This document shows, piece by piece, positions 13,390 through 33,483 of a stretch of DNA of 64,000 nucleotides. The position numbers were made by a program, and so were the translations under genes. Under the pieces are notes generated by a model. That model was not told the DNA's origin. It was given only the letters and a program-made list of their open reading frames with translations, and did not search any database. Positions within the stretch are counted from its first letter, which is position 1. Each line of letters opens with the position of its first letter. The stretch spans positions 310,001 to 374,000 of the forward strand of contig JAFOLH010000015.1 of assembly GCA_017419405.1 (NCBI GenBank). The letters are read 5' to 3'. The DNA comes from Renibacterium sp. Lineage in GTDB: Bacteria; Actinomycetota; Actinomycetes; Actinomycetales; Micrococcaceae.

Positions 13390-13418
13390 TTGTACAAACC
13401 GACTGATCGGTTTATAAT
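13390..13418 (+). promoter_or_regulatory. panD promoter with embedded ARE-like operator; leaderless start
   Basis: TTGTAC (13390-13395) and a perfect TATAAT (13413-13418) are separated by 17 bp, an ideal sigma-70 type promoter. Transcription would start about 7 bp after the -10, at the A of the panD ATG (13425), so the mRNA is probably leaderless; there is no ribosome site. The whole spacer is a perfect inverted repeat, AAACCGA-CTGA-TCGGTTT (13396-13413). This matches the ACCG-N6-CGGT form of autoregulatory elements bound by gamma-butyrolactone receptors. A repressor bound here would block RNA polymerase directly. Confidence 0.75.
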
Positions 13419-13424
13419 TGCACC

Positions 13425-13841
13425 ATGACCCGAACGATGTTTAAGTCAAAAATCCATCGAGCCACCGTTACCGAAGCAAACCTGCACTACGTCGGATCCG
13501 TCACGGTCGACCTGGACCTCCTGGATGCCGCGGACATCCTGCCCGGAGAACTCGTTTCAATCGTCGACATCGACAATGGCGCCCGACTCGAGACCTACAC
13601 CATCGCCGGAGAACGCGGCTCCGGAGTGCTGGGGATCAATGGTGCGGCAGCGCACCTGGTACACCCCGGCGACCTCGTCATCCTGATCACCTACGCCCAA
13701 ATGTCCCGGGCGGAAGCCCTCGACTTCGTTCCCAAGATCGTGCACGTCAATGAGCGGAACCAGATGGTCAAACTCGGCACCGACCCGGCCGAATCAGTGA
13801 CCGAAGGGCTTTCCCGACCGCCCTTCGCGGTGAGCCGCTGA
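13425..13841 (+). CDS. panD: Aspartate 1-decarboxylase (pyruvoyl enzyme)
   Basis: The 138-aa protein matches PanD over its length. [21 protein letters not shown] carries the self-processing site Gly24-Ser25, where cleavage creates the pyruvoyl cofactor, and ITYAQM and IVHVNERN are conserved. It converts L-aspartate to beta-alanine and CO2, normally for pantothenate/CoA. Here it is not with other pan genes. It lies next to a biosynthetic operon with two amide-bond-forming enzyme types, and its promoter has an ARE-like operator. It may therefore make beta-alanine as a building block; primary metabolism remains the alternative. Confidence 0.93.
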
Positions 13842-13853
13842 TTCCGCTCTCTC

Positions 13854-13936
13854 CTCGCGAAGATGCATCTTCGATTCTGAGATGCAGTATTGGCCGCTAA
13901 ACGTGCATCACGATGCTGAAGATGCATCTTCGCGAG
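13854..13936. repeat. 19-bp inverted repeat with palindromic arms between panD and the FAH gene
   Basis: CTCGCGAAGATGCATCTTC (13854-13872) is repeated in perfect inverse at 13918-13936, with 45 nt between. Each arm contains the self-complementary 14-mer GAAGATGCATCTTC, so the structure can fold as one long hairpin or as two small ones. It begins 12 bp after the panD stop and ends 27 bp before the end of the convergent operon. Bidirectional terminator is the first reading; a pair of protein-binding palindromes is the alternative. Confidence 0.7.
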
Positions 13937-13963
13937 TTGGGCTAACAGGGGGTGTCCGCGGGC

Positions 13964-14812
13964 TTACGCTCCGCCGACGGGCGTGCAACGTGTCGTCATC
14001 CTGCCGATCTCGGGGGCGAAACTCTCCACCAGGTCGCCTGCCTCGAGGTATTGCGGCGGAGTCATCTGCATGCCCATTCCAGACGGGGTTCCGGAGAAGA
14101 TCAGGTCACCCGGGTAGAGCTCGCAAATCGCCGAAATCCTCGATACCAGCTCGGCGATCGGGAAAATCAGCCGAGCGGTGCTGTCGCGCTGCACGGTCTT
14201 GCCGTTGACCGAACAGCCCAACTCGATGTCTTCGCGATCCGCAAACTCATCGGGAGTGACCAGAACCGGCCCGGTCGGCCCGAAGGACGGGAACGATTTG
14301 CCCAGCGAAAACTGCTTCGCCGGTCCGCCCAATTGCAGCTCCCGCTCGGAGAAGTCCTGGCCCAGGGTCAACCCGGCGACCAAATCCCAAGCCTCGGCCG
14401 CCGCAACCCGATAGCCGGGTTTGCCGATCACGACGACGATTTCGACTTCCCAGTCCACCGAGGCCGTAGGCAACGGAAGGTCTGCGTGCGGTCCCACGAT
14501 GCTGCTGGGGAACTTGGTGAAAATCACCGGCAGCTCATCGGAGCCGGCCACTACGGATGCCCGGCCGTGATAGTTGCTGGCGATGGCGAAGACTTGGCGC
14601 GGCCGAGGCGACGGCGCACCGAGTTGCTCCGGGTCCACCGCGATCCGGCCTTCCGGGGCCTGGGCCGAACCGTACCAGTCCCGGAACTCGCTCCACTGCT
14701 GGAACAACGCCCCGGGTTCGGCCGGAAACCGGCCACCGGAGGCGAGTTCGACGTCGATGGCGCTATCGCCGTCGAACACCACCGCCCGGCCGGCCAGGTT
14801 CCCCAGCCTCAC
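13964..14812 (-). CDS. Fumarylacetoacetate hydrolase (FAH) family protein
   Basis: The FAH-superfamily catalytic fold is clear: FAIASNYHGRA, FTKFPSSIVGPHADL with the Glu-type metal site VDWEVEIVVVIGKPG, then LTLGQDFSERELQ and GDLIFSGTPSGMGM. I prefer the GTG at 14812 (282 aa) because GGGGGAG lies 6 bp upstream; a TTG at 14830 would add 6 residues. Members hydrolyse or decarboxylate beta-diketo and 2-oxo acids or act as hydratases. It is the last gene of the nine-gene leftward operon, 36 bp after the ATP-grasp gene. Its role there is unknown. Confidence 0.85.
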   Translation of the reverse strand: MRLGNLAGRAVVFDGDSAIDVELASGGRFPAEPGALFQQWSEFRDWYGSAQAPEGRIAVDPEQLGAPSPRPRQVFAIASNYHGRASVVAGSDELPVIFTKFPSSIVGPHADLPLPTASVDWEVEIVVVIGKPGYRVAAAEAWDLVAGLTLGQDFSERELQLGGPAKQFSLGKSFPSFGPTGPVLVTPDEFADREDIELGCSVNGKTVQRDSTARLIFPIAELVSRISAICELYPGDLIFSGTPSGMGMQMTPPQYLEAGDLVESFAPEIGRMTTRCTPVGGA

Positions 14813-14848
14813 CGGCCGCTCCCCCGGCAAAATTCCGGAGCACCGGGT

Positions 14849-16180
14849 TCACGCATGGTCGAATTCCTTCTCCGCGGCGAAATCCCCGGCCAGCAGATCC
14901 GCGTCCCCGGCATCGTCGACCTGGTAGAGGATCTCCGCCAGCCGCTTGGCCTCGCGGTAGTCCTGTTCCAGCACTGCTTCGTCCGGATGGGTCAAAAAGG
15001 CCCGCAGCGGCGCGTTCATCAGATCCGTGGTCGGTTCGATCCGGTCGCCGGCCTGGTACTTGACCGTCATGGCGCAGACGCTCGGCAGTTCCCGGATCTG
15101 TTCCGCGATGTCCTGGTTCACCGCGGTCACGACGCCGTTCAGCGCGGTCGCCGCGTTGTAGACGAGGGCGCTTTGCCGTTTCTGGTAATTGCGGCCTTCG
15201 GTCTTGTCCAAGAATTGTTTGGCCTGCACATAGGCTTCCGCGCTCAGGCCGGCCTGGCTGTGGCCCAGGCAGATCTCCTGCAGACCGGGGTGGTTATTGC
15301 CGTTGATCCTGGCTCCGATCTCCACCAGCACCGGGCCGCGCCCGGTGATGATGACCTCGGCGTGCGCCGGACCCCATTGGATTTCCAGGGCGTCCAGTAC
15401 CTTGGCGATGTAGGGGATCATGACCTCCGCGGCCGGATCCTGCGGATCCACCAGGACGTCGCGGTCATAGATGTTCTTGCCCGAAGGCAAGAGGTTCTTC
15501 TGGTACTTCCAGACTCCGCACGCGTAGTGGTATCCGGCGCTGCTGACCGTGTCCACGATGTATTCCGGACCGGCCAGGAATTCCTGGATCAGCACTTCGT
15601 CGTTGGGCTCGCCGAAGAGGTTCGGCGAACCGAGGAGCTCCCGGATCGAGCGGTCGAGTTCTTCCCGGTTCGCGCAGATGACCACGCCGTCGGTGCCCGC
15701 CGATTTCAACGGTTTCACCACCGCGGGGTAGCCCACGGTCTCATCGACCCAGCGCAGCAGGTCCTCGGGGTCATTGCCCTTCCGATGCTGCACGCAGGGC
15801 ACGCCGGCGCTCCGGAGCGCTTCGACCATTTCGAATTTGTCCCGGCGGGCCAAGGAGAGCTTGGTGCCGTTGCTGACCACGCCGAGCCGCTCGCTGAGTT
15901 CGTCGGCCAATTCCACGCCGGTCTCCTGCCCCGGAACCACGCAGACCGGCGAGTACGCGCGCAGCCTTTCGAGCAGCTCATCGGTGACCTGCGAGTCCCG
16001 CAGCACGATGTTTTCGCGGTAGACCGTCAGATCCGGCGCCTTCATCGTGGCATAGAGTTCCGGCGTGCTTTGCACGTGGACCAGATCGACGCCCAGCGTG
16101 CGGTAGGCCGCAGGCAGGAAATTCCCCGCCGAATAGCCGTCCACCACGATGGCGACCAGGGGCTCAGTCGAATTGCTCAT
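14849..16180 (-). CDS. ATP-grasp ligase (amino-acid ligase-like)
   Basis: The protein has 443 aa from the ATG at 16180, preceded by GGAGGG. Family features are an N-terminal Rossmann-like part (LVAIVVDGYSAGNFLPAAY), the ATP-binding core GYPAVVKPLKSAGTDGVVI and VLIQEFLAGPEYIVDTVSS, and the metal-binding loop VLVEIGARINGNNHPGLQE. This is the layout of BacD-type L-amino-acid ligases and related carboxylate-amine ligases, which form an acyl phosphate and then an amide bond. Its start overlaps the aminotransferase stop (ATGA). It is one of two candidate amide-forming enzymes in the operon; substrates unknown. Confidence 0.85.
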   Translation of the reverse strand: MSNSTEPLVAIVVDGYSAGNFLPAAYRTLGVDLVHVQSTPELYATMKAPDLTVYRENIVLRDSQVTDELLERLRAYSPVCVVPGQETGVELADELSERLGVVSNGTKLSLARRDKFEMVEALRSAGVPCVQHRKGNDPEDLLRWVDETVGYPAVVKPLKSAGTDGVVICANREELDRSIRELLGSPNLFGEPNDEVLIQEFLAGPEYIVDTVSSAGYHYACGVWKYQKNLLPSGKNIYDRDVLVDPQDPAAEVMIPYIAKVLDALEIQWGPAHAEVIITGRGPVLVEIGARINGNNHPGLQEICLGHSQAGLSAEAYVQAKQFLDKTEGRNYQKRQSALVYNAATALNGVVTAVNQDIAEQIRELPSVCAMTVKYQAGDRIEPTTDLMNAPLRAFLTHPDEAVLEQDYREAKRLAEILYQVDDAGDADLLAGDFAAEKEFDHA

Positions 16181-17547
16181 GATTTTCCTCCCTGCCCGGT
16201 CCGGGCAGCATGATCGGTGATGAAACGGGCGAGCCGGGCGATGCCTTCGGCGATCTTCGCGGGTTCGAGGTTGCTGACGCCCAGACGCAGCTGGCGCTCT
16301 CCCCCGCCCTCCGGATAGAACATGTTCATCGGGGCCCAGCTGACGCCGTATTCCCGCGCGGAATGTTCCATCAACGCGAGGTCGACGGCGAACGGCAGGT
16401 TGAGCACGATGAAAAAGCCGCCGCGCGGCTCGTTCCAGCCCACCCCGTGCTGGTCCCACTTCGAGGGCGGGAAATGCAACGCCAGGTTCTCCAACGCCGC
16501 CTTCAACCGTTCCAGATAGACGTCACGGGACGATTCCGAGGCCTTGCGGAGGTCGTAACCGCGTTCATGGAGCAGCCCTGCGATCAGCGCCTGGGACAGC
16601 GACGAGGTGCCGACGCTGAACATGCTCTTCGCCAGCGAGAGCCGCTGCGAGAGGTACCGGGGGCTCTGCCCGCGGTACTCCAGGATCTGGTCCGCGATCA
16701 AATAGCCCATCCGGGCACCGGGGAACGCCGATTTGGCGAACGAGCCCAAGAAGACCACGCGTTGCCGGGTGTCCAGGGCTTTGAAGGTCGGCAGTTGCTC
16801 CCCGTCCGGTGCGAAGATGCCATACGGATTGTCTTCCAGGATCAGCAGATCTTCCGCTTCGGCGATCTCAAGCAACCGCCGCCGGGTGGCGAGCGGGATC
16901 ACGGTTCCGGAAGGGTTCGAAAAGTCCGGGATCAGGTAGAGCGCCCGCGGCCGCTTGCCTTCCGCCCGGGTAGCCCGGATGGCTTCCAGCACGTTTTCGG
17001 CACAGATGCCTTCCGGCCCTTCGAGCACTCCCCGGTAAGGGATGTCCAGCATCCGGGCGGCGCCCAGAATGCCGACATAGGCCGGAGCCACGGTCAGCAG
17101 GACGTCGTCCGGGGAGCTGAACAGGCCGCGCAGCGCAATCAGCAGGGCTTCCTGGAAACCGTTGGTCACCATGATCGAGGCTTCGGGCACCTCGATGCCT
17201 TCCTGGACCCGCAGCATCTGCGCGATTTCAGCCAGGATGAAGCCGTTGACCGGCCCGTAGTGGAACATCCGGCGGGCCAACAGGGCTTCCGGCACCCCGG
17301 CCTCCCGCGAACAGGCGAAATACTGTTCGATCTGGCGGGAGATCTGGTTCAGGTCGTAATCGCCGTCGTACGGCGCTCCCGAGGAGAAGGACAGCGCGTC
17401 CGGGAAGGCCATCGCGGTCTCGCTCAGCACCCGCATGGAGTCCATTTTCGCGTCCAGCAACGCCGGGTGCAGGCCTTCCAGCGCGACCGGTCCCAAGTTC
17501 GGGAACTCCTGCGGCAGGATCGCCTCGGCGGTCAGTTGATCGGTCAT
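16177..17547 (-). CDS. PLP-dependent aminotransferase, class I/II (2-aminoadipate/MocR-like catalytic domain)
   Basis: This 456-aa fold-type I aminotransferase lacks the N-terminal GntR HTH of MocR regulators, so it is an enzyme. Visible sites are N211 in PDFSNPSGT, D239 and Y242 in LEDNPYG, and the Schiff-base lysine K272 in GSFAKSAFPGARMGY. The family includes 2-aminoadipate and aromatic/branched-chain transaminases. It is translationally coupled at both ends (ATGA with the YciI gene and with the ATP-grasp gene). It probably supplies or modifies an amino acid for the ligase. The substrate is not predictable from sequence. Confidence 0.87.
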   Translation of the reverse strand: MTDQLTAEAILPQEFPNLGPVALEGLHPALLDAKMDSMRVLSETAMAFPDALSFSSGAPYDGDYDLNQISRQIEQYFACSREAGVPEALLARRMFHYGPVNGFILAEIAQMLRVQEGIEVPEASIMVTNGFQEALLIALRGLFSSPDDVLLTVAPAYVGILGAARMLDIPYRGVLEGPEGICAENVLEAIRATRAEGKRPRALYLIPDFSNPSGTVIPLATRRRLLEIAEAEDLLILEDNPYGIFAPDGEQLPTFKALDTRQRVVFLGSFAKSAFPGARMGYLIADQILEYRGQSPRYLSQRLSLAKSMFSVGTSSLSQALIAGLLHERGYDLRKASESSRDVYLERLKAALENLALHFPPSKWDQHGVGWNEPRGGFFIVLNLPFAVDLALMEHSAREYGVSWAPMNMFYPEGGGERQLRLGVSNLEPAKIAEGIARLARFITDHAARTGQGGKS

Positions 17548-17852
17548 CGGACAGCCCCGGCTGCGGCGCTTTCGGGTGCCCATTGGCCTTTGCCCGGCTG
17601 CCACTCGCGGATCGTGGTGCCGGAGACCAAGCCGGCGAGCACATACGGCTCCGCAGCCAGAATGCCATCGAGCTCGCTCCGATCGGCGGCTTCGTACAAC
17701 AACAGCCCGCGGTTTTCACCGACCAGCGGACCGCCCAGTTTGAGCACGCCGTCCGCGGTGAGTTCACGGAGATATTCGACGTGGGCGGGATTGCTCGGTT
17801 CGCGTCCGGTTCGGTCGACGTTGTAGCTCAATTCGACAAGGTAGATCGCCAT
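17544..17852 (-). CDS. YciI-family protein
   Basis: This 102-aa alpha+beta ferredoxin-like protein starts MAIYLVELSYNVDRT and ends in an Ala-rich tail. The YciI pattern (N-terminal strand, conserved H in PAHVEYLRELTADGVLKLGGPL, then DRSELDGILAAEPYVLAGLV) is complete. Relatives include muconolactone isomerase-like and dehydrochlorinase-like small enzymes. In this operon, between an SDR and an aminotransferase, it could act on an unsaturated or lactone intermediate. It overlaps the aminotransferase start by 4 bp. Confidence 0.82.
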   Translation of the reverse strand: MAIYLVELSYNVDRTGREPSNPAHVEYLRELTADGVLKLGGPLVGENRGLLLYEAADRSELDGILAAEPYVLAGLVSGTTIREWQPGKGQWAPESAAAGAVR

Positions 17853-17912
17853 CTCAGGTCCTTTCGGGAAATTTCGGTTCGCTTCGGGTTCGGATTCCGG
17901 GTGCCGGAGTGC

Positions 17913-18665
17913 TCACATGTAGAGGCCGCCGTTGATGTCGATCACCGAGCCGGTGGTGAAGCCCGCACTCTCCGACGCCAGGTACAAGACGCTTCCCACG
18001 GCTTCGTGCACGGTGCCCATGCGGCGCATCGGCAGTTTGGACAGCACGGCCTCCTTTTGCGCCGGGTCCCGGCGCTCCCAGGCGCCGGCCACCCGCGCGG
18101 TCGCGATCGGACCGTGCGCCACGACATTCACGCTCACGCCGGTCGGCGCCAGTTCGTAGGCGATCTGCTTGGTCATGCCGATCACCGCGGCTTTCGCCGC
18201 GACGTACGCGGCATTGTTGAAGTGGCTGTACGTGCGGCCGCCGGCCGAGGCGAAATTGACGATCCGGCCGTAGCCCGCCTCGACCATCGAGGGCGCCAAC
18301 ACCTTGATCGCGGTGAAAGTCCCGATGACGTTTTCCAAATACGAGGTTTCGAAAACCTGCTGGTCCAGTTCGGCATACGGGATCACCCGGGTGTCTCCGC
18401 CGACGCCGTTGATCAGGATCGACGGTTTGCGCTGCAGGCCGGAGAGGAGCTGTTCCGCTTCCGCGGTCTTCGTGATGTCTCCGACGACGGTCTCCACATC
18501 GACGCGGCCACGCAGTCGGGCCGCCATCTCTTCGAGTCGTGCTTCATCCCGATCGAACAGGATGAGCTGGCAGCCTTGCGCGGCAAGTCCGTCGGCTACG
18601 TCTTGCAAGATCCCGCCGGCTGCGCCGACCAACAGGGCGGTCTGCGGTGAGGGTGCTGAAGTCAT
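17913..18665 (-). CDS. SDR-family oxidoreductase
   Basis: A 250-aa classical SDR. The cofactor loop is slightly atypical (LLVGAAGGILQDVADGL instead of TGxxxGxG), followed by VGDITK, the catalytic Ser in FASAGGR and Tyr-x-x-x-Lys in YVAAKAA, and the C-terminal GSVIDINGGLYM. It overlaps the enolase-superfamily gene by 4 bp upstream and leaves a 60-bp gap before the YciI gene, the longest gap in the operon apart from that at the MFS gene. It probably performs an NAD(P)-dependent redox step on the operon's small-molecule product. Confidence 0.87.
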   Translation of the reverse strand: MTSAPSPQTALLVGAAGGILQDVADGLAAQGCQLILFDRDEARLEEMAARLRGRVDVETVVGDITKTAEAEQLLSGLQRKPSILINGVGGDTRVIPYAELDQQVFETSYLENVIGTFTAIKVLAPSMVEAGYGRIVNFASAGGRTYSHFNNAAYVAAKAAVIGMTKQIAYELAPTGVSVNVVAHGPIATARVAGAWERRDPAQKEAVLSKLPMRRMGTVHEAVGSVLYLASESAGFTTGSVIDINGGLYM

Positions 18666-19876
18666 CTGGAAATGCCTACCTTTTCTCGTTCTTCACGGTG
18701 TGTTTCTTGATTTGATTCGAGCGTGCGCCGCAAATTCGCGCTGGGCCGCAGGCCCAATCCGATGGACCGGCCGGCGGGCGCCGGAAGCAGGTACCGGTCC
18801 CGGTCGACGGCGATTGCCGGTTCGGTCAACGGCTCCGGGAACCACTGGTCGTGTTTCCCCGCTTCCACGGTGGCCAAGCCCGCATAGCTCCCGGCCAACA
18901 GGCGCATTGCACCCCAGAGCGGACCGATTTCGCCGACGTGCACCCCGAGCTGGGCCCGCAAGCCGAGCCCGTGGGCCACCCGCAGCAGACTCAGACTGCG
19001 CAGCAGGCCACCGCATTTGCTGATCCGGATATTGACCAGATCCGCAGCTCCGTGCGCTGCCGCAGCCTCGAGATCGCTGCGCGAGGCGAAGGATTCGTCC
19101 AGCATGATCGGAATCCCCGAGGCTTCCCGCAGCGACCGCATCGTCGGCCAATCGCGCGGCCCCACGGGTTCCTCGATCCAACCGATCGACAGCCCGGCGA
19201 GCCGCCGGACGGCGGCATGCGCGAGCTCCGGCGTCCAAGCCCCGTTCGCATCGAGCACTACGGTGGCATCCGGGCCGAAGACCTCCCGCACCTGCAGCAC
19301 CCGCTGCACGCAGTCGTCGAGGTCTGCGGAGACCTTGACCTTGACATGCCGGATCGAGGCAATCGCCTCGGGGCTCAGCGCCGAGGTCGTCGCCGCGACG
19401 CCCGAGGACAAATCCACCACGAAGCTGACCGGCGAGGCCACGGCTTCGCTGCGCAATATCGACGCAAAACTCTCCTGACTTTGCAACGCTTCGAAACCGG
19501 TCTTCCGATGGATGCTGCAGATCAGGTCGAAAAGCGCCAGTTCGACGGCGGCCGCAGCCGCCGGCATCGGCACCGGCCCGCCGAGCGCTGCTTCGAGGTC
19601 CACTTCGCGCAGCGCGGTGATCGCACCCGCGAAGTCCGGAACCGCCAGGACCCGGTCGAGCAGGTCCAGGTCCAAGGCTTCGATCGCCGCTTGCGCGGAC
19701 TCGACGGTCTCCGCGGTCACATACGAACGCGGCGCGCCCTCTCCCCAGCCGGTATGTCCGGAGGCTTCGGCGAACACCAGCACCGATGCCGTCGTCTGGC
19801 GCTTCGCACCGGCGTGCGAAAACGGCCGCGCCATCGGCAATTCGGCGGCGGCCACCCGGAACGAATCCAGTTTCAT
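18662..19876 (-). CDS. Enolase-superfamily enzyme (muconate lactonizing/dipeptide epimerase type)
   Basis: The 404-aa protein has the full MLE-subgroup active site: the KxK pair K179/K181 (HVKVKVS), metal ligands D209 (VVLDANG), E235 (WIEEPVG) and D260 (IMLDES), and the opposite-face lysine K287 (RISKCGG). A lysine on each face is the pattern of racemases, epimerases and o-succinylbenzoate synthases. Next to amide ligases a dipeptide or N-acyl amino acid epimerase is the best guess. It overlaps the genes on both sides by 4 bp. Confidence 0.85.
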   Translation of the reverse strand: MKLDSFRVAAAELPMARPFSHAGAKRQTTASVLVFAEASGHTGWGEGAPRSYVTAETVESAQAAIEALDLDLLDRVLAVPDFAGAITALREVDLEAALGGPVPMPAAAAAVELALFDLICSIHRKTGFEALQSQESFASILRSEAVASPVSFVVDLSSGVAATTSALSPEAIASIRHVKVKVSADLDDCVQRVLQVREVFGPDATVVLDANGAWTPELAHAAVRRLAGLSIGWIEEPVGPRDWPTMRSLREASGIPIMLDESFASRSDLEAAAAHGAADLVNIRISKCGGLLRSLSLLRVAHGLGLRAQLGVHVGEIGPLWGAMRLLAGSYAGLATVEAGKHDQWFPEPLTEPAIAVDRDRYLLPAPAGRSIGLGLRPSANLRRTLESNQETHREEREKVGISR

Positions 19877-20775
19877 CGCCGTTGCCCCTCCGGATGCCCT
19901 GCCGTTCCGCCGGGGGTCAGCAGCTCCACCAGCCAGTGCCAGTAGTCGACGCGGCGCTCGGAGAACTCCAGATAATGTCCGGTGCAGGCGAAATTGCTGG
20001 TCTTGGCGTTCGGATGCAATTCCCGGATCACCGCGGCTGCCGCGGCGAGGTCGATGATCGGATCGCGGTCCACGGTCACGAAATGCACTTCGGCGTCGAT
20101 TTCCGCGCTGCGGCCCCAGTACTGGTCTTCGATCGCCACCATGGTCGCCCGCGTGCGCTGGGTGATCTGACGCAGCATCAAATGGTCGTTCGCCATGAAC
20201 TCCAAATACCGGGCCTTGGACGTGTAATCCTCGTCGGAAAGCCCCAGGCTGAACCGGTCGGCACCGGTCAGGGCGCGCAGCTCCGGCAATTTCGCCACGC
20301 CATGCCGGGCGTGTTGTTGGCCCAGGGCCGGGGTGCAGTAGATCAGCCGCGCTACGCCGGGCATCCCGACGACCGCCATCGAGGCCAGGATGCTCCCGCC
20401 GAAACTCTGGCCGAGCACCGAGGTGGCGATTCCGCGGTGCCGCCGTTGCACTTCGGCGAGCCCCTGGAAGTAGTCGGCTGCGACGGCCTCCGCGCTGGGC
20501 AGATCACCGGGTGTGCCGCTGCTGCGTCCCGAGCCCCGACGGTCCAGGGCGTAAACCGCGATGCCGAACCGGCTCAGCGTCCGGGCCGTTTCGATCAACC
20601 ATGCGGCGTGGCTTTGGATTCCGTGGATGTAGTAGAGGACTCCGACGACTTCCGCCGGGTCGGCCGGCAGCCATGCGTGCAATGCCAGTTCGACGCCGTC
20701 TGCTGCGGTCAACGAACTCACGGCATAGTGCTCGGGCGTGGTTTCGGCAGCGATCGGACTGCTCACCAAGGACAT
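19873..20775 (-). CDS. Alpha/beta hydrolase (serine hydrolase, monoglyceride-lipase-like)
   Basis: A 300-aa hydrolase with an oxyanion region YYIHGIQSHAAW, the nucleophile elbow GQSFGG at about residue 125, an acid region HFVTVDRDPII and a C-terminal His in CTGHYLEF. The S33/hydrolase_4 group includes esterases, thioesterases and peptidases. It follows the GH3 gene with no gap, the ATG lying directly against that gene's stop. It may release or trim the amide or ester made by the GH3 enzyme. No substrate evidence. Confidence 0.85.
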   Translation of the reverse strand: MSLVSSPIAAETTPEHYAVSSLTAADGVELALHAWLPADPAEVVGVLYYIHGIQSHAAWLIETARTLSRFGIAVYALDRRGSGRSSGTPGDLPSAEAVAADYFQGLAEVQRRHRGIATSVLGQSFGGSILASMAVVGMPGVARLIYCTPALGQQHARHGVAKLPELRALTGADRFSLGLSDEDYTSKARYLEFMANDHLMLRQITQRTRATMVAIEDQYWGRSAEIDAEVHFVTVDRDPIIDLAAAAAVIRELHPNAKTSNFACTGHYLEFSERRVDYWHWLVELLTPGGTAGHPEGQRR

Positions 20776-22512
20776 TCAGGACACCACCCATGAGCTCATG
20801 CCGGCGCTTTGCAAGCGCTGCAGCAGGTCGTCGTTGCGCTGGATCCAGTAATGCTTCAACTGGCTGGCAGACGCCCCGGCGAGCCGCCGCTTTTCTTCCA
20901 GCACCGCGAAGGTGCCGGGGCGGACGGTCAGCAGTTCCAAAGCGGTGAGCCGGTGGGTACGCCGCTTTTCGGCGTATTCGATATTGAGTTTCTGCAATTG
21001 CTCCTCGATCTGTTCCGCCATGGTCTGCTGGGAGAGCCCGATTTCGCCGGTCCATTCCAGGACCACGGTGTATCCGGGCGGGGTGCCCCAGACCGGCACG
21101 CAGGTGAAGAGCTGCCGGGCGGAAAAACTTTCTCCGCACGCGCGTCGGACGGCTTCGTGGATATCGCTTTCGGTGAGCTTCTCGCCGGTGAAGGAGCTAC
21201 CGAATCCGGCGCGCTCAGCGAACTCCAGTCGGGGCAGCTTGCCCACCATGTCGACCACCCGGTATCGGTCGCCGAGGTCGTAGCGGTAGAGCCCGCTGGC
21301 TTGGCTGATCACCACGTTGTAGGTGGCACCGACGTCGAGCTCGTCGAAATTGAGGGTTTCGGCGTCCGGCGCCACGTCTGAACCGTCGTCGGATTCCGGC
21401 ACCGGGACGAATTCGTACAGGCCCATGTCGACCGCCAGCGGCCCTGCCGAGGGATGCTCGTCGACCGGGATCGTGATGATCCCCTCAGTGCCCGTGGAAC
21501 TGAACGGCAGTTTGGCGATCCCCGGTGTGACGTCCTCGAGCCAATGCCGGTAGAGCCCGGCAGATGCGGAATTCCAGGAAACCGTCAGGCCCAGCCCGGG
21601 CCAGAAATCCACGAGTTTGAGCCCCTTCGCGGAGCCGGCAGCTGCCGCAGCGAGCCGCTTGGCGAGCTCCGGGTTCGGTTCCGCCACCAGGCTTCGGCCG
21701 CGCAGGGTGCCCTGGGCGATGTCCTCGATGAGTTCTGCGGCGTTTTCCGCCAGCAGCTCGGCGAGACCGATGATTTTCGACGGGTTCAGCGCCACGATCG
21801 CAGCCACATCGGATCCGGCAAGCAGCCGGAGTTTGCGGTAGAGCGAGTCCCGGTAGTCCTCGGTCTCCACCCCCTTGAACCAGCTTTCGTGGTACCACGG
21901 CGGCAACCAGTCGCCGCTGCTCACCGCAGCCGGACGCTGCGAGATCGGATACTGGTGCCGGGAATCCAGGTTCGCGGACAACGAAGCCCGTTCCCAGGAC
22001 AAGTCCAGGACCGAAGCGCCCAACGCACGTTCCCGGCCCAGCTTTTCGAAATACAGCCCCCATTGCGAATAGAGCGCCCGGCCCCGGTAGGCGTCCCGCC
22101 AATGCCGGGTGGTCGGGATCAGCTTCGGGACTCCGGTGGAACCGGAGGTGCGCAACAGCGCATAGGGCTCGCTGCGGGTCAGCACGTTGGTGTCGCCGTC
22201 GACGAGTTTGTCGATGTAGGGCTTGTACTCCGGATAGCACCGGATCGGCGTCGCCTTTTTCCAGTCGGCCATGGTGCGCACCTGGGCCAATCCGTGCTTG
22301 CGTCCGAAATAGGTCTCCCGGGCCTCGCCCAGGATGTCCAAGAAGGTCCGGTGGAACACATCCTGCGGAGCCCAGCAAGTCTGCCGGCGCAGCTCGAGTT
22401 CGCTCAGCGACCGGTCCAAAAACCGACCCGTGATGGATGAGGTATTCATCCTCTGCCGGTCGACGGCGTATTCAAGATCTTCGGATTCCAGTTCCAGCAT
22501 TTGACTGTTCAT
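20776..22512 (-). CDS. GH3-family acyl-acid amido synthetase homologue
   Basis: The protein has 578 aa from the ATG at 22512 (GGAG about 10 bp upstream); the frame is open further but that is shadow of the MFS gene. The ANL-type ATP motif TSGSTGVPKLIP appears at about residues 115-130, then SSTGTEGIITIPVDEHPS and YRYDLGDRYRVVDMVG, and the C-terminal domain TGEKLTESDIHEAVRR. The family is named for plant enzymes that adenylate auxin or jasmonate and join it to an amino acid. Bacterial members are far less studied and occur in natural-product clusters. Here it likely makes an amide bond; the auxin catabolic genes a few kb away make its acyl substrate an interesting question. Confidence 0.85.
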   Translation of the reverse strand: MNSQMLELESEDLEYAVDRQRMNTSSITGRFLDRSLSELELRRQTCWAPQDVFHRTFLDILGEARETYFGRKHGLAQVRTMADWKKATPIRCYPEYKPYIDKLVDGDTNVLTRSEPYALLRTSGSTGVPKLIPTTRHWRDAYRGRALYSQWGLYFEKLGRERALGASVLDLSWERASLSANLDSRHQYPISQRPAAVSSGDWLPPWYHESWFKGVETEDYRDSLYRKLRLLAGSDVAAIVALNPSKIIGLAELLAENAAELIEDIAQGTLRGRSLVAEPNPELAKRLAAAAAGSAKGLKLVDFWPGLGLTVSWNSASAGLYRHWLEDVTPGIAKLPFSSTGTEGIITIPVDEHPSAGPLAVDMGLYEFVPVPESDDGSDVAPDAETLNFDELDVGATYNVVISQASGLYRYDLGDRYRVVDMVGKLPRLEFAERAGFGSSFTGEKLTESDIHEAVRRACGESFSARQLFTCVPVWGTPPGYTVVLEWTGEIGLSQQTMAEQIEEQLQKLNIEYAEKRRTHRLTALELLTVRPGTFAVLEEKRRLAGASASQLKHYWIQRNDDLLQRLQSAGMSSWVVS

Positions 22513-22595
22513 CGTGGCGCGTCTCCAATCTCGACGAATTCTCGTTGGGTTCACATGATCGACAGGTGGTATGGGAGGGTGCTGCCAGGGCCCGG

Positions 22596-23786
22596 CTAGG
22601 CGTCGGTTTTCGCGTCCGTCTTGGCGTGGCTTTCCTTGGGCACGGCGAGCAACTTGAAGCCCAGCCCGCCGAGCAGGCCCAGGACCAGGACGCCCAGCCA
22701 CAAGGCGGGGTAGCCGAAGGCATTCGCGATCACGATGCCCAGTGGCCCGCCGATCATGAAAGCCGTGTTCCAAACGAAGAAATACGAGCTCATGTAACTG
22801 CTCGTCCGGCCCTCCGGAGCCCGGGCCGCGAGGTATCCGGCAGACATCGGCGCCCAGAGCACTTCTCCGATGGTCCAGAAAATCAACGCCACCAAGAAGA
22901 ACGGCACATCGTGCGCGAAAGCATTCAAGCCGAAGCCGACGCCGACGAAAACCGAGGCGAGGACCAACGGAGTGCTGTCCGGCCACTTGGCGACCAGCTT
23001 GGGTACCAGGGGCAGCAAGACGATGGACAGCACCGCATTCACCGCGAGCACAATGCCGATCTGCGCGGAGTTGATGCCCTCGGACAGCATGTGCAAAGGC
23101 AGCGTCGAGTTCACCTGGAGGTAGATCAGGGCCACGATGAAGCACAGGACCAGGAAGACCACCAAGGAGCGCTGCCGATAAGGCTCGGCCAGGTCGCGGG
23201 CCATGTTCTTGAGCGAAAAGGGTTCCGTTTTGGCCACCGTTTCGTCCGGCGGCAGGGACTTCGCGAATCCCCAGTACAGTGCGCTGCAGGCCGCCCAGAC
23301 CATGAAAATCCCGGGTGGGAAGATTTCAAGGAACAGACCGGAGAGCACCAGGCTCAGCGTGGTCCCGACGTTGAACCCCATCAGATGGAGTCCATAGGCC
23401 CGGGGGAAGTGGTCCGGCGACACCATGGTGGAAATCAGGGCGGCCCCGGCCGGACGTTCGATCGTGGAAAGTGCTCCGGAGAGCAGAGCGAGAATCCCGA
23501 TCAGGATCGGATCGCGGACCACCAGGTAGAGCAGTGCGATCAGGACCGCGATCGGCTCCGCGATCAGGATGAGTTTCCGGGGTCCGATGGATTCGGCGAG
23601 GACGCCGCCCAAGAGCCCGGCCAAAACGATTCCGACGCCGAACAATCCGACAATCAGCGAAGCCGCTGACTCGTTGATGATTCCGCTTCGTTGGAGGTAA
23701 ATGACCAGGAAAGCCGGTGCGATGAGCCCGATGCGGTTGAGGATCTGACCTGTCCAGAGCAGCCAATAGGCCTTAGTGAGTTTCAT
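22596..23786 (-). CDS. MFS transporter (efflux)
   Basis: The protein has 396 aa from the ATG at 23786 (MKLTKAYWLLWTGQILNRIG), the first start giving a normal MFS N-terminus; an upstream ATG at 23813 is possible. About 12 hydrophobic helices are visible, with the loop 2-3 motif LLGGVLAESIGPRKLILI and a long central loop after helix 6. The charged C-terminus is AKTDAKTDA. The family type (MdtH/tetracycline-resistance-like) suggests export of the operon product and self-protection. It heads the nine-gene operon, and an ARE-like site lies about 90 bp upstream. Confidence 0.88.
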   Translation of the reverse strand: MKLTKAYWLLWTGQILNRIGLIAPAFLVIYLQRSGIINESAASLIVGLFGVGIVLAGLLGGVLAESIGPRKLILIAEPIAVLIALLYLVVRDPILIGILALLSGALSTIERPAGAALISTMVSPDHFPRAYGLHLMGFNVGTTLSLVLSGLFLEIFPPGIFMVWAACSALYWGFAKSLPPDETVAKTEPFSLKNMARDLAEPYRQRSLVVFLVLCFIVALIYLQVNSTLPLHMLSEGINSAQIGIVLAVNAVLSIVLLPLVPKLVAKWPDSTPLVLASVFVGVGFGLNAFAHDVPFFLVALIFWTIGEVLWAPMSAGYLAARAPEGRTSSYMSSYFFVWNTAFMIGGPLGIVIANAFGYPALWLGVLVLGLLGGLGFKLLAVPKESHAKTDAKTDA

Positions 23787-23872
23787 CAATTTCCGTTTGT
23801 AAGGACAAAACATGTGCGATGTAACAGGTGGCCCGCCCCACAACCATGGCCACAATCCACATCGTAACAGAT

Positions 23873-23897
23873 AAACATGACGATCGATCGGTTTTTT
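23873..23897. promoter_or_regulatory. ARE-like operator upstream of the MFS/GH3 operon
   Basis: AAACATGACG-ATCGAT-CGGTTTTTT has a degenerate left arm, a 6-bp centre and a right arm CGGTTT identical to that in the panD site; both sites share GATCGGTTT. The centre is 99 bp upstream of the MFS start in the gap between the MFS and epimerase genes. The weaker symmetry lowers confidence. The shared half-site and the neighbouring butyrolactone receptor gene make it a plausible receptor target. Confidence 0.45.
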
Positions 23898-24038
23898 AAT
23901 TGCCCGAAACACTGCGTAGTGAATCGGCCCGGAGACCTCCCGCCACGACGTTCCGAGCCGGTTCTCCGGGGGCTTCGTGCGGCCTTTTCGGACCGCCCGA
24001 AGCCCCCGGGACCTAGCACTGATACGGCACTGGCTGGG

Positions 24039-25001
24039 CTATCCGGCAAGCAGCCCGCGGTACCAGTCCGCAGTCGCCGGATCGAAGAACTCCCGCGGCG
24101 CCGGGTTCAGCCCGGTCGCCTCGAAAGTTCCGGACGCATCGAACCAGGAATCGTGGCACAGCATCTCGAGCGCACTGGAGCCTAGGCGCCTGCCGGCGGC
24201 GATTTCCCGGGCTGCGGCCAAGGCCAACGGAGCCGCCGGCAGCTCGAGGCCCACCCGTTCCCCGAATGACCTGGCCAGCTCCGCAATGCTGACCGGTTCG
24301 AGTTCGGCCGCGGCATAGGCTCCTGGCGAACCGTGCTGGGCGAGCGCAGCAACCAATCCGCCCAAACGATCCACGTGGATCGCCGAAACCTTCGCCGCCC
24401 CGGCCAAAGGCATGCCGCCCAAGGCGCGCAACAATGCGGACATTCCGGGCATCACCCAACGGTCTCCGGCGCCGAGGATCAGCTGCGGCCGCACCACGGT
24501 GCCGCCGGCGTCCAAAACCATCCGGTCCGCCGCCGCGCGGTCCCGGCTCCGGAAACTGGTCGGTGCGTAGCCGAGTCGCCGCAGGTCGCTGCCGCGGAAG
24601 GGCCCGCGGCCGTGCACCGCAGCAGTGCTGACGTAGACCAAGCGCTGGATCTCCGACTCGCGGCTGATCTCGATGACCGTTCGCACCAGATCCAGATTGA
24701 CCGCCCGGCTGAGTTCCTGGTCCGCCCCCAGATAACTGGTCGCCACGATGACGGCCTCTGCTCCGCGGATGGCTTCCGCGAGCAAATCGGTGCGCCTGAA
24801 ATCGAACGGGGCCAAGCCGACTTCAGCGACCGAGGACTCCGCCGTCGGCTGGATCTTTTGTCTCGCGGCCAGCCGAAGTGGGATACTTGGGCGAGTCTGC
24901 CCAAACGCGCGCCGGATACCCGATCCGATGAAACCGTTCGCACCGAGCAGAAGCGTCGGCGCGGCTGGGTGGACAGGAAAATCATTGGCTAGATTTTTCA
25001 T
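24039..25001 (-). CDS. NAD(P)-dependent epimerase/reductase, candidate butyrolactone-pathway reductase
   Basis: An extended-SDR type protein of 320 aa from the ATG at 25001 (MKNLANDFPVHPAAP). The dinucleotide motif is LLLGANGFIGSGI, then VIVATSYLGAD, VYVSTAAVHGRG, and VVRPQLILGAGDRWV. The active-site Tyr-x-x-x-Lys is not obvious, as in some atypical members. It is divergent from the receptor gene with 34 bp between the starts. Reductase genes of this type sit beside afsA/receptor pairs in Streptomyces (ScbB-like), where they reduce the butenolide/keto intermediate. That role is inferred from context. Confidence 0.75.
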   Translation of the reverse strand: MKNLANDFPVHPAAPTLLLGANGFIGSGIRRAFGQTRPSIPLRLAARQKIQPTAESSVAEVGLAPFDFRRTDLLAEAIRGAEAVIVATSYLGADQELSRAVNLDLVRTVIEISRESEIQRLVYVSTAAVHGRGPFRGSDLRRLGYAPTSFRSRDRAAADRMVLDAGGTVVRPQLILGAGDRWVMPGMSALLRALGGMPLAGAAKVSAIHVDRLGGLVAALAQHGSPGAYAAAELEPVSIAELARSFGERVGLELPAAPLALAAAREIAAGRRLGSSALEMLCHDSWFDASGTFEATGLNPAPREFFDPATADWYRGLLAG

Positions 25002-25035
25002 CTGATCAGCAGCTTTCGAGGAGTCTAATTTTTTT

Positions 25036-25656
25036 ATGGCAATGCAGCAGCGAGCTATCGAGACTCGCGAAAGGATCGTGGCCGCCGCAGCGGAGATATT
25101 TTCCAAAATGAGTTTCGCGGAAGCGTCGATGTCGGACATCATCAAGCTCGCGGCAGTGACTCAAGGGTCGGTGTACTTCCACTTCGATTCGAAAATGGAC
25201 CTGGCCAAAGAGATCGTGCACCGGCAGCACCTCATCTCGATGGAGCTGGGCAAAAATCGACTGGAGTCGCAGCGCCCGGCGATCGATTCCATGGTCGACC
25301 TGTCCTTCGACCTGGCCCGGTCGCTGCTGAGCCAACCGATCATGCGCGCCGGTCTGCGCCTGAGCACCGAATCCCTGGCGGTCTTCGACCAACCGATTGA
25401 AAGACCTTATCTGGATTGGATGGAGTTCTGCACCACGCTCCTCGAGCGCGCTGCCGACGAAGGCGAACTCATCGCTGATCAGGACATCGAATCGATCTCC
25501 TTCGTGATCATCAGCTCCTTTACCGGAGCCCACGTCTTTGCCGCGGCGCTCGGCGAATTGGACACCCTCGAATCCCGGTTGAGCAGCATGTGGCGGCTGC
25601 TGCTGCCCTCGATCGTCACGGACAAGGCGAAGACGCCGATTTTGTCCGCGCATTAG
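25036..25656 (+). CDS. TetR-family gamma-butyrolactone receptor (ArpA/ScbR type)
   Basis: A 206-aa TetR protein starting MAMQQRAIETRERIVAAAAEIFSK. The HTH (residues about 30-55, SDIIKLAAVTQGSVYFHFDSKMDLAKEIV) matches the AKVTKGALYFHFxSKexlA consensus of ArpA/ScbR receptors better than that of general TetR regulators. The remaining helical part is the ligand domain. Its 3' end overlaps the convergent afsA-like gene by 4 bp, the physical linkage seen for scbA/scbR-type loci. It should repress ARE-containing promoters and release DNA on binding a butyrolactone. GAGGAG lies 12 bp upstream of the ATG. Confidence 0.82.
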   Translation: MAMQQRAIETRERIVAAAAEIFSKMSFAEASMSDIIKLAAVTQGSVYFHFDSKMDLAKEIVHRQHLISMELGKNRLESQRPAIDSMVDLSFDLARSLLSQPIMRAGLRLSTESLAVFDQPIERPYLDWMEFCTTLLERAADEGELIADQDIESISFVIISSFTGAHVFAAALGELDTLESRLSSMWRLLLPSIVTDKAKTPILSAH

Positions 25657-26552
25657 AAGGCCAGCTCCAGAATCCGGTGAATCGAGGACACCGGCACCTC
25701 GACCACTGCGGTGGCCAGCACGCTGCCGGACTGCCGGACGGAGAACCACTCCCGCACGGCCCCCGAAACGTCATAGTGGTCCGGGACTTCGCGGTGGATC
25801 TCGATTTCCGGCTCGAACTCGGCGAACTTGGCGAAGCTGCAGTCGAATGACGACAGTTCGGACCCCGGACCGTGCACCTCGTGCACCGCCTGCCTGATCG
25901 CTTCGAGGAAGAGCATCCCCGGCACATGGTCCAAGGGGTGGTCGAAGAACACCGAATGCCGAAACGGCACCTCGAGCTTCCAGACCGCCTCGCTGTCGAT
26001 CGCTTCAATGAGCTTGCCGCAGGCGCTCGGCTTGCGGTCCGAGGGCGCGGCCAGGCTCCGACTGCCACGAATCTTGTCGTAGACCTTCCGCGGAACCACC
26101 CGGAGCTCCCCCCGGCCGGAGCCGAAATCGATTCCATCGGCCTCGAACCGCGCCTCGATGTCCAAGGCCCGCAGATTGCCGGCGGCATAGGCTGCGGAAT
26201 CGACGGAAAGCTGAATCGTGACATTCGTCGGACCAGTGCCTTCGCAGGGCGCGGGCTCCGACATCGAAACCATCAAACGGTCCATCAGGAAACTGCTTTC
26301 CAAAGGAACTCCGAGATATTCGTGGCAAACCACGAAAGCGGCCTGCCGCATGGCTTCGGCCAATAACGTCAAATTGCCCGGTGCTTGGCCAGGGCGGTAA
26401 AAATGATGCTCCCGAGGCCATTGGCTGCCCAGCACGAAAGCCCGCTGGTCGCACTGCAGGGAGTCGGTGATCAGGACTTCGGCAATGGCCCGTTTATGGA
26501 CCAGGGATTTGGCCACGGTCGATTCGAAAACGAGTTGGGATTTGCTTGACAT
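25653..26552 (-). CDS. AfsA-family gamma-butyrolactone signal synthase (double hotdog)
   Basis: The 299-aa protein contains two AfsA repeats. The first has LVHKRAIAEVLITDS, then the downstream FVLGSQWPREHHFY and LLAEAMRQAAFVVCHEYLGVP. The second runs FRHSVFFDHPLDHVPGMLFLEAIRQAVHEV and FAKFAEFEPEIEIHREV. The H-x4-E-VLITD and DHxxDHVPG-MLxxEAxRQA patterns are the family signature. AfsA/ScbA condense a beta-ketoacyl group with dihydroxyacetone phosphate in the first step of butyrolactone hormone synthesis. GAGG lies 6 bp upstream of the ATG. AfsA-type hotdog proteins without signalling roles exist, but the adjacent receptor and ARE-like site support signalling. Confidence 0.87.
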   Translation of the reverse strand: MSSKSQLVFESTVAKSLVHKRAIAEVLITDSLQCDQRAFVLGSQWPREHHFYRPGQAPGNLTLLAEAMRQAAFVVCHEYLGVPLESSFLMDRLMVSMSEPAPCEGTGPTNVTIQLSVDSAAYAAGNLRALDIEARFEADGIDFGSGRGELRVVPRKVYDKIRGSRSLAAPSDRKPSACGKLIEAIDSEAVWKLEVPFRHSVFFDHPLDHVPGMLFLEAIRQAVHEVHGPGSELSSFDCSFAKFAEFEPEIEIHREVPDHYDVSGAVREWFSVRQSGSVLATAVVEVPVSSIHRILELAF

Positions 26553-26595
26553 GTTGTTTCCTCACTGTGTTGACAAAGGTGAAAAGACAGACCAA

Positions 26596-26616
26596 ACAAA
26601 CCGATCGAACGGATTA
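26596..26616. promoter_or_regulatory. ARE-like operator upstream of the afsA homologue
   Basis: AAACCG (26598-26603), centre ATCGAA, CGGATT (26610-26615): the same ACCG-N6-CGG architecture as the panD site, flanked by T- and A-rich arms (CCAAACAA on the left, ATTTTT on the right). Twelve-base arms agree at 8 positions. It lies 46-63 bp upstream of the ATG, in the expected promoter region. In Streptomyces the receptor controls afsA/scbA through such a site, giving autoregulation of signal synthesis. Confidence 0.6.
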
Positions 26617-27220
26617 TTTTTTCGAAACAACTCGCCTGCTCAGTTTTCAACACTCCCCCCAAAACTCGCTGGTACTCAGCCGACCAGCCCCCGATGCGGC
26701 CTATCTCAACGCACCCATCATGGGGCCTGCCGCTCCGGATGCGAAACGTTCTCAGCACAGTCGATTGCGGCGCGCAGCACCAAGGCCGCCGGCCGGCCTC
26801 AGGCCGTCCTGCGCACACCCCTGAACGTCGGCTGGCCGCGCCCGCGCTCCCGGTCAAAAGACGCCGGATTCATACCAATCCCGGCGGTGGCGCACGCTCG
26901 GCGCTTGGCCAGCGGCGCACCGTCGGCGGAGCACACATCGAAGGCGCTTTTCGTCTCGGAGGTCAAAATCGGAAATATTCACGGATCGCAATCTTTGCCG
27001 ACGATATGAAAATTCCGGTGATCGATGCATATTCACAGCTTGCGCCAAACGGATGCTGAGTCGAAGATCGCATCGATCAGGTGGCCGGGTTAGGAATTCA
27101 CCAATGCCGGCGAACCTTACCGGTATACCGCCCGAGGCACAGCCGGGCCTACGGTGATCGAAAGGCCCGCGAAGCAGCAACCCGGAAACCGGGGCACCGC
27201 GGTTCCACCGAGGGAGGGGT
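26617..27220. other. Long intergenic region, no gene recognised
   Basis: About 600 bp between the afsA promoter and the SnoaL-like gene. Several open frames cross it on both strands, but none has a recognisable domain, a ribosome site or a consistent codon bias, so I call none. GGGAGGGG at 27211-27218 is the ribosome site of the next gene. The length is unusual for this window and may hold a small RNA or gene remnants. Confidence 0.5.
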
Positions 27221-27772
27221 ATGCAGCACCAGATCAGTTCGCTCGTCCGGCGGATCGAGGCCTTGGAGGCCGAAGCGGAGATCCGCCGGCTTCAGGCCCG
27301 CTACCAGTTCCTCTGCGATACCCCGTGCCCCGAACCGGGCGTCGTCGATGACCGGGACCGGATCGATCGGATCATGGAGTTGTATGCGGACGGCTGCCTC
27401 TGGCAAGGCGTCGGCGAATATTATGCCGGGCAATTCGGCAAGGCGGAGGGGAAAGCCCAGGTACGGGCACACTTCGAACGGTTCTGGGCGCAACGCAGCG
27501 AACCGGCCTTGGTCCTCAACGCCCACTACTTGAGTTCGGAGCAAATCCACGTCGACGGCGACCGCGCCGAGGGCCAATGGATACACCTGCAGCCGTGGTT
27601 CTTCGCGGACGGCTCCGGTCAATTGAGATCCAGCAGGCTCAACAACGGCTTCCGCCGGATCGATGGATCTTGGCGGATCACCAGGACCCGGACGGAGAAC
27701 GTCTTCGTGGCGCCGTTGCCCGCCGGTTTCGCCTCCGCATTCCCGGCCTCCTCGGTGCTCATGGAGCCCTGA
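27221..27772 (+). CDS. SnoaL/NTF2-like protein
   Basis: A 183-aa protein with a short N-terminal coiled segment (SSLVRRIEALEAEAEIRRLQARY) typical of SnoaL_4 proteins. The cone-shaped NTF2-like fold follows: RIMELYADGCLWQGVGEYY, VRAHFERFWAQ, SEQIHVDGDRAEGQW, NGFRRIDGSWRITRTR. This family includes dehydratases, cyclases and small subunits of dioxygenase-like systems acting on aromatic or polyketide compounds. It converges on the response-regulator gene at the edge of the auxin island, so it could serve the island or the biosynthetic cluster. Function unassigned. Confidence 0.8.
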   Translation: MQHQISSLVRRIEALEAEAEIRRLQARYQFLCDTPCPEPGVVDDRDRIDRIMELYADGCLWQGVGEYYAGQFGKAEGKAQVRAHFERFWAQRSEPALVLNAHYLSSEQIHVDGDRAEGQWIHLQPWFFADGSGQLRSSRLNNGFRRIDGSWRITRTRTENVFVAPLPAGFASAFPASSVLMEP

Positions 27773-27791
27773 GGCCGGCCGGCGGACCCGG

Positions 27792-30548: not shown

Positions 30549-30602
30549 GTCTCGACGTTAGGCTTGGACCCGCTCAACCGATATCAAGAGTTCCACCGCC
30601 CC

Positions 30603-30623
30603 TGCTGAGGGTTTCCCCTACGT
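30603..30623. promoter_or_regulatory. Candidate response-regulator site upstream of iacG
   Basis: TGCTGAGGGTTTCCCCTACGT overlaps the end of the kinase gene and shares GAGGGTTTCC-like core and flank positions (14 of 21) with the reverse complement of the site at 32183-32203 in the iacA-kinase promoter. Matching sites before the two iac transcription units are what a dedicated regulator would need. Confidence 0.4.
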
Positions 30624-33446: not shown

Positions 33447-33483
33447 GCCCCCGACCGATCTTCCCACCGAGCAGGAGAATCCA

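Follow-up and report, generated by a model that had tools for sequence, protein, structure and literature searches.

A predicted butyrolactone-controlled gene cluster of Renibacterium sp. with a putative borrelidin-type acid module, an amino-acid ligase and a second panD

Introduction

What might a compact biosynthetic operon make when it contains neither a polyketide synthase (PKS) nor a nonribosomal peptide synthetase (NRPS), and what would switch it on? The question is raised by a locus of Renibacterium sp. that lies in a 64,000-nucleotide stretch of contig JAFOLH010000015.1 (positions 310,001 to 374,000), referred to here as the window; coordinates below are those of the window. Nine co-directional genes stand there beside panD and a signalling triad, that is, the genes for an AfsA-type butyrolactone synthase, an ArpA/ScbR-type receptor and a reductase. 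A preliminary description of this DNA had proposed a hormone-controlled pathway for a small amide. In our reading, the pathway is repressed through the butyrolactone system, and an unusual acid from a borrelidin-type module receives an amino group from an aminotransferase before an ATP-grasp ligase links it with beta-alanine; we give this reading a probability of roughly 0.6. The regulation is well supported, and the chemistry and the product are put forward as what these genes may do.

Results

One palindrome was found three times on reading the intergenic DNA, at the promoters of panD, of the operon and of afsA. Operator 1 (AAACCGACTGATCGGTTT, 13396–13413) lies at panD, operator 2 (ATGACGATCGATCGGTTT, 23877–23894) at the operon promoter and operator 3 (AAACCGATCGAACGGATT, 26598–26615) at the afsA promoter. 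The panD promoter (13390–13418, plus strand) has a −35-like TTGTAC (13390–13395), a 17-bp spacer and a −10 TATAAT (13413–13418), and the panD ATG begins 7 bases past the −10. Operator 1 occupies the spacer and extends by one base into the −10. A promoter scan at panD returned a single site, 13391–13418 (TGTACA, spacer 16, TATAAT, 10/12), compared with a mean of 0.2 in shuffles.

When the draft assembly (3,756,697 bases in 17 contigs) was searched with the symmetric consensus AAACCGATCGATCGGTTT at up to 3 mismatches, the palindrome occurred at three places, all in the cluster; the reversed control of the consensus gave 0 places. Since the consensus was built from these three sites, the informative part is its absence elsewhere in the assembly. 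A de novo search for the best common palindrome of the three intergenic regions returned one with 7 mismatches in total, and none of 400 dinucleotide shuffles was as good (best 11, mean 14.5). All three operators were identical in a second genome of the same species (G489), and the palindrome was absent from 51 related GH3 loci (878,249 bases) that are described below.

The AfsA/ScbA-type synthase (25653–26552, minus strand; PF03756) scored 212.8 bits with NF041195 (ScbA/BarX; curated cut-off 200) and has two hotdog repeats, seen as two PF03756 stretches. The ScbR/ArpA-type TetR receptor (25036–25656, plus) scored 180.2 bits with NF041196, the model of ScbR-type autoregulator-binding factors (curated cut-off 150); its best solved chains were CprB and AvaR1, among other receptors. 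The triad is completed by an NAD(P)-dependent reductase (24039–25001, minus; PF01073, PF01370). The family assignments of synthase and receptor made in the preliminary description were thus upheld by the NCBIfam curated cut-offs, and the proposed wiring of the cluster to a butyrolactone system gained support from these scores together with a palindrome that is shared by three cluster promoters and found nowhere else in the assembly. We consider it very probable, from the DNA and its encoded families, that the receptor regulates the cluster via the three operators, the predicted repressor binding and the identity of the hormone being the parts that we infer. As in the AfsA/ArpA and ScbA/ScbR systems, both proteins pass the curated cut-offs and palindromes occur at the synthase and biosynthetic promoters; unlike in those systems, the predicted regulon includes panD, and there is no SARP-type activator among the cluster-region proteins searched with Pfam.

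AfsA matches were obtained in 6 of 99 genomes searched, the own genome included, five of them above the cut-off. In another genome of the family, a palindrome that resembles an ArpA-type operator (ATACCGTCCAGTCGGTAT) lies upstream of afsA, at position 1998 of locus L090. The own genome carries a second AfsA-receptor-reductase triad elsewhere (contig C1, about 178456–181050; L111, 8457–11051), in which the synthase and the receptor likewise pass the NCBIfam cut-offs; the cluster reductase is 37% identical to its reductase.

All 13 cluster genes had a Pfam match above the gathering score, and the nine-gene operon, panD, and the synthase, receptor and reductase genes were all present, arranged and oriented as first described. 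The operon runs on the minus strand from the MFS gene (23786) to the FAH gene (13964). Gene 1 codes for an MFS transporter, a probable exporter (22596–23786; PF07690). It is followed by a trio comprising a GH3-type acyl-adenylate/amide synthetase (20776–22512; PF03321, PF23571, PF23572), an alpha/beta hydrolase of the S33 type (19873–20775; PF12146) and an enolase-superfamily (MR_MLE) enzyme (18662–19876; PF13378). Then come a short-chain dehydrogenase/reductase (SDR; 17913–18665; PF13561), a YciI-like small protein (17544–17852; PF03795), a pyridoxal phosphate (PLP) aminotransferase (16177–17547; PF00155), an ATP-grasp amide ligase of the L-amino-acid-ligase type (14849–16180) and an FAH-superfamily protein (13964–14830; PF01557; start TTG at 14830, alternatively GTG at 14812). 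At four of the eight junctions the genes overlap by 4 bp, at one they abut (0 bp), and the other three have gaps of 18, 60 and 83 bp, in line with the mostly 4-bp overlaps or short gaps noted at first. No ketosynthase (KS) or condensation-domain motif occurred in any gene called in the window, as expected from the claimed absence of PKS and NRPS, and we are highly confident that this is a biosynthetic cluster without either.

The ATP-grasp ligase scored 367 bits for subfamily PRK07206 (cut-off 302), and it matched the solved L-amino acid ligase 30vh (E 6.2e-65). It shares this subfamily with the dapdiamide synthase DdaF and the L-amino acid ligases; it differs from DdaF in reaching 228.3 of the 840 bits required by NF041595, and DdaF was rejected as an identity for it. 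The bacilysin ligase BacD was rejected likewise (26.7 bits; NF053745 cut-off 850). Homologues at E ≤ 1e-40 were present in 15 of 394 genomes of the class, the own genome included, and the neighbours of the ATP-grasp genes in genomes G626 (51% and 49%) and G777 (44%) gave no substrate clue. For the aminotransferase, the solved relatives include 2-aminoadipate and kynurenine/aminoadipate aminotransferases (1x0m, 2egy and others). The YciI-like protein has a weak match to the dehydrochlorinase TftG (E 6e-4). The nearest solved chain of the FAH protein is 6v77; six FAH proteins of the family (those of the window and of loci L035, L037, L039, L040 and L048) do not have the His and Glu found in the NYxxHAxE stretch of 6v77; given the mechanisms of FAH enzymes, this is a hint that they act as isomerases or lyases and not as hydrolases.

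The preliminary description could not name this type of cluster. It does have relatives: a borrelidin-type locus holds counterparts of five operon proteins out of nine (GH3, hydrolase, enolase-type enzyme, SDR and FAH), and near-orthologous clusters exist. On contig L040 of Streptomyces rochei NRRL B-2410 the order, read by eye, is PKS end, P450, aminotransferase, zinc dehydrogenase, GH3, F420-type oxidoreductase, FAH and a threonyl-tRNA-synthetase-like protein, the last assigned by Pfam; identities to the window proteins are 50% for GH3 and 34% for FAH. An enolase search of S. rochei led to a second contig, L089. There, behind PKS-like genes recognised by eye, come a CoA-transferase-like protein, a thiamine pyrophosphate (TPP) enzyme, the hydrolase (47% identity), the enolase (43%), an SDR (46.5%), a second SDR and a thioesterase-like protein. 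The annotated record of Streptomyces sp. SGAir0924 (L115) has PKS, P450, aminotransferase, dehydrogenase, GH3, F420 enzyme, FAH and thrS in this order, and was the best of nine plasmid records with a GH3 match. From its gene order we take this layout to be that of the borrelidin cluster, whose bor genes, with their functions and order, were reportedly set out by Olano et al. in 2004. PMC6697708 refers to a 2004 description of the cluster and names trans-cyclopentane-1,2-dicarboxylate as the starter of the borrelidin PKS.

The likeness to the borrelidin-type locus lies in these five proteins (34–50% identity), in a 9-row GH3 clade and in an enolase motif, both given below. The difference is that a modular PKS, a TPP enzyme, a CoA-transferase, a dehydrogenase, an F420 enzyme and a threonyl-tRNA synthetase adjoin them there, none of which is in the operon, whereas the window adds the ATP-grasp ligase, another aminotransferase, YciI and panD. 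On this comparison the operon probably contains a borrelidin-type acid module. Among the matches listed in a literature search (open-access titles and abstract starts), no report assigned reactions to the borrelidin GH3, enolase-type and hydrolase genes. Ring building of the cispentacin (amc) type was also considered; it was rejected because the type II KS-type pair and the acyl carrier protein (ACP) on which it relies (PMC10698177) have no match among the cluster-region proteins searched with Pfam.

A GH3 of this kind was found in 1 of 99 relatives, which is the own genome, and in 3 of 396 genomes when the whole phylum was searched, again counting the own. Scanning genome contigs, from which own-genome records may be excluded, gave 51 related GH3 loci. 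Within 8 kb of GH3, an enolase-type gene was present at 23 loci, a hydrolase gene at 24 and both at 22; the SDR was present at 10, FAH at 5, YciI at 4, and the aminotransferase, the ATP-grasp ligase and the MFS transporter at 2 each, all of these being lower bounds since some contigs end near GH3. In the GH3 tree (53 rows) the window protein groups with those of Kutzneria and Streptomyces sp. UNOC14_S4 (support 100/99), inside a 9-row clade (100/100) that includes S. rochei, S. natalensis, S. diastatochromogenes, Streptomyces sp. RPT161, Bradyrhizobium and Actinokineospora. Enolase linkage required 6 changes on this tree against 17.9 in shuffles, so it is clustered, although not in one single clade; here L040 was placed by hand among the enolase-linked rows, its enolase gene being on another contig. 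The window GH3 has all three domains of the plant GH3 amido synthetases and of the bacterial OlsH, and is distant from both (best E 7e-23 for the plant proteins; 81.4 of 620 bits for the OlsH model, with OlsH outside the tree). A GH3 protein is also listed in a table of PMC8487521, at a rubiginone cluster.

In the enolase-type protein, K179, K181, D209, E235, D260 and K287 are conserved in at least 85% of a 21-row alignment, and both catalytic lysines and three metal ligands (KxK, D/E/D, second lysine) are present as in dipeptide epimerase. The motif E-[AGC]-G-[KR]-x-D-[DEQ]-W-F is common to 8 of the 21 proteins, namely those of the window, Kutzneria, UNOC14, S. natalensis, RPT161, Actinokineospora, L048 and S. 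rochei. Dipeptide epimerases have a DxD at the end of the eighth strand; in the window protein EAGKHDQWF seems to occupy this place, as judged by sequence. The earlier label 'epimerase-like' fits this protein only as its nearest family, and an epimerase role is putative. An enolase-type search of plasmid records (390 records) returned, among the 15 matches listed, ordinary epimerases where annotated.

The closest relatives of the whole operon were found in Kutzneria viridogrisea DSM 43850 (L035), with 8 of the 9 operon genes together, and in Streptomyces sp. UNOC14_S4 (L036), with 7 of the 9. The set there consists of MFS, another ATP-grasp, GH3, hydrolase, enolase-type enzyme, SDR, YciI, aminotransferase and a TauD-type oxygenase, and FAH in L035; the gene identities in L035 are backed by Pfam. 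The seven genes common to all three clusters (MFS, GH3, hydrolase, enolase-type, SDR, YciI, aminotransferase) keep equal relative order at 45–72% identity; in Kutzneria the MFS transporter is 49%, the FAH protein 58% and the SDR 72% identical to its window counterpart. They differ in that a distant ATP-grasp (28–30%; with an LAL_C2 domain in L035) stands before GH3 there, and in the TauD-type oxygenase, at whose position the window has its own ligase of another subfamily. No KS or condensation motif was found in the called genes of L035 and L036, and no panD, AfsA or receptor in these stretches (21.7 and 16.3 kb).

The cluster panD (13425–13841, plus strand), coding for an aspartate 1-decarboxylase for beta-alanine supply, scored 161.6 bits with TIGR00223 (cut-off 106), and its product contains YVGSVTVD, presumably the G-S cleavage site. 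It is the second copy of the genome: a search of 29 genomes, own included, was positive in 22, with two copies in the own genome and one in each of the other 21. The other own copy is on a different contig and is 75% identical. A second panD that bears an operator strengthens the case for the beta-alanyl amide suggested at the outset, which we regard as plausible, the product itself being conjectural. Our main argument for beta-alanine as ligase substrate is the joint change relative to Kutzneria and UNOC14_S4: in the window a ligase of another subfamily stands at the oxygenase place, and panD appears. From this swap beta-alanine would be the ligase partner, and its incorporation into the product appears somewhat favoured.

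In the second genome of the species, G489, the gene set and order were identical, and the called protein pieces were 98–100% identical, so the arrangement is more than chance. dN was below dS in 10 of 11 computable genes, panD being the exception (dS 0), although changes were few and the comparison left out cupin, FAH and GH3. For the FAH gene, 860 of 867 bases aligned, with one gap. A 17.8-kb stretch to the right of afsA (26,977–44,743) is missing at that place in G489, which retains the cluster, and thus marks the right edge of the cluster.

Discussion

We propose the following course of events. An ScbR-type repressor would occupy the shared palindrome at the three promoters, those of panD, the nine-gene operon and afsA. 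As the hormone made by AfsA and the NAD(P) reductase accumulates, the repressor would be released, and beta-alanine supply, the pathway, the exporter and hormone synthesis would be switched on together. GH3, hydrolase and enolase-type enzyme may act as one module, assisted by the SDR and the FAH protein. GH3 would activate a carboxylate and form an amide; the enolase-type enzyme would take the alpha proton beside the metal-bound carboxylate, leading to epimerisation or ring closure; and the alpha/beta hydrolase would free the product of the module. The aminotransferase would then add an amine, and the amino acid so formed would be coupled by the ATP-grasp ligase to a second one, for which beta-alanine is the likeliest candidate; the MFS protein would export a small pseudo-dipeptide. 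Each of these reaction steps, like a cyclopentane-type acid as their outcome, is a proposal, and we put a carbocycle in the product at somewhat below an even chance. More doubtful still is the wider idea that the trio is a carrier-protein-free route to carbocyclic acids, serving as PKS starter in borrelidin and here, with panD and the ligase under a butyrolactone switch, leading to a beta-alanyl carbocyclic pseudo-dipeptide.

The same genes could be arranged without any ring. GH3 would link an acid with an amino acid, and the resulting N-acyl amino acid would be racemised by the enolase-type enzyme, as N-acylamino acid racemases and dipeptide epimerases do; the hydrolase would cut the amide and the ATP-grasp ligase couple the D-amino acid. 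Among solved structures the enolase-type protein is indeed closest to the dipeptide epimerase 3jva (E 6.2e-24), its 43 matches include N-acylamino acid racemases, its best NCBIfam model is the N-acetyl-D-Glu racemase DgcA (102.4 of 400 bits), and the catalytic lysines and metal ligands are conserved. The motif that seems, as placed by sequence, to replace the DxD of dipeptide epimerases argues otherwise, as does the nitrogen-free nature of the cyclopentane dicarboxylate that PMC6697708 gives as borrelidin starter; we hold this N-acyl-amino-acid route to be unlikely. A catabolic or detoxifying operon, in which MLE-, YciI/muconolactone-isomerase- and FAH-like proteins degrade an aromatic compound or a plant hormone that is imported by the MFS protein and conjugated by GH3, is less probable again. 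These families also occur in aromatic degradation, and from about 27 kb onward there are catabolic-looking genes (by eye, with Pfam support for SnoaL and amidase); but that stretch is missing at this place in G489, which has kept the cluster, and one of its genes, for a PAS kinase, has no ortholog in that genome. Moreover, catabolism does not account for the amino-acid ligase, the second panD or the AfsA/ScbR-type operators, and elsewhere the trio adjoins an antibiotic PKS. Least probable, in our judgement, is a triad that stands beside the operon by coincidence and controls something else. Related clusters are without a triad, and no biosynthetic cluster was seen by eye in the 18 kb surrounding the second triad of the genome, as such a coincidence would allow. 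Against it stands the operator palindrome, shared by afsA with panD and the operon and present nowhere else in the assembly, whereas the promoters of the second triad are without the palindrome (best 8–9 mismatches).

Several observations weigh against the butyrolactone-repressed, borrelidin-type pathway that we prefer. The three operators match the 22-base ArpA/CprB operator, which was co-crystallised with CprB (PMC4150764), at 14, 13 and 14 bases on one strand; this speaks for the predicted regulation, but the likeness is weak if taken alone because 72 of 127,958 window 22-mers reach at least 13 matches and some reach 14 or 15. A looser asymmetric pattern had 7 places in the assembly when up to 1 mismatch was allowed, three lying in this cluster; allowing up to 2 gave 70 matches compared with 26 in the control. 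The short gap preceding the receptor gene showed no operator-like palindrome, and the promoter scan found no promoter-like pair at operator 2 or operator 3.

On the chemical side, we take the trio of the borrelidin-type locus to make the cyclopentane starter acid, and presume that L040 and L089, two draft contigs, are opposite ends of a single borrelidin cluster. The operon contains nothing that corresponds to the TPP enzyme, CoA-transferase, zinc dehydrogenase or F420 enzyme of that locus, and its acid may accordingly differ from that of borrelidin. The preliminary description had named scattering of the operon genes among relatives as a refutation, and on this the neighbourhood comparison is mixed: the core travels together (trio at 22 of 51 loci), but panD, AfsA, receptor and reductase were within 8 kb of GH3 at none of the 51, and the hormone wiring and beta-alanine supply are therefore special to this lineage. 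The trio is not always apart from PKS or NRPS genes, since L041 has an NRPS-like gene and L047 has KS-bearing genes nearby, as has L078, where the enolase is present and no hydrolase was found. The GH3 gene of G489 has an in-frame stop (L141, 1274–3010, minus strand), which is either a sequencing error or a real loss.

A small PKS-free operon with a borrelidin core and two near-orthologous clusters would make this chemistry testable with few purified proteins. The predicted butyrolactone regulon is compact, with three operators and a precursor-supply gene included, and removal of the repressor would offer a handle to turn on a silent pathway.

Additional observations

The trio seems to work without PKS or NRPS here and in several clusters of other bacteria, L043, L045 and L046 among them, and it lies beside one in L041 and L047. 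L043, L045 and L046 are proteobacterial clusters in which the trio is accompanied by an MFS protein, a CHMI-like tautomerase, an SDR, an aldo/keto reductase and a TPP enzyme; Pfam or NCBIfam support for these gene identities is limited to members in L046. In L041 and L047, next to the NRPS- or PKS-like genes, the trio is accompanied by 2-hydroxyacid-dehydrogenase-like genes and an aconitase-type pair, a combination known from 2-oxoacid chain lengthening.

In the window itself, the stretch 26977–44743 holds catabolic-looking genes (by eye), among them an amidase, a response regulator and a PAS kinase. Farther to the right, at 55049–62544, lies a long stretch without a gene called by the codon-usage caller, in which the G+C content is lower, about 0.55–0.59.

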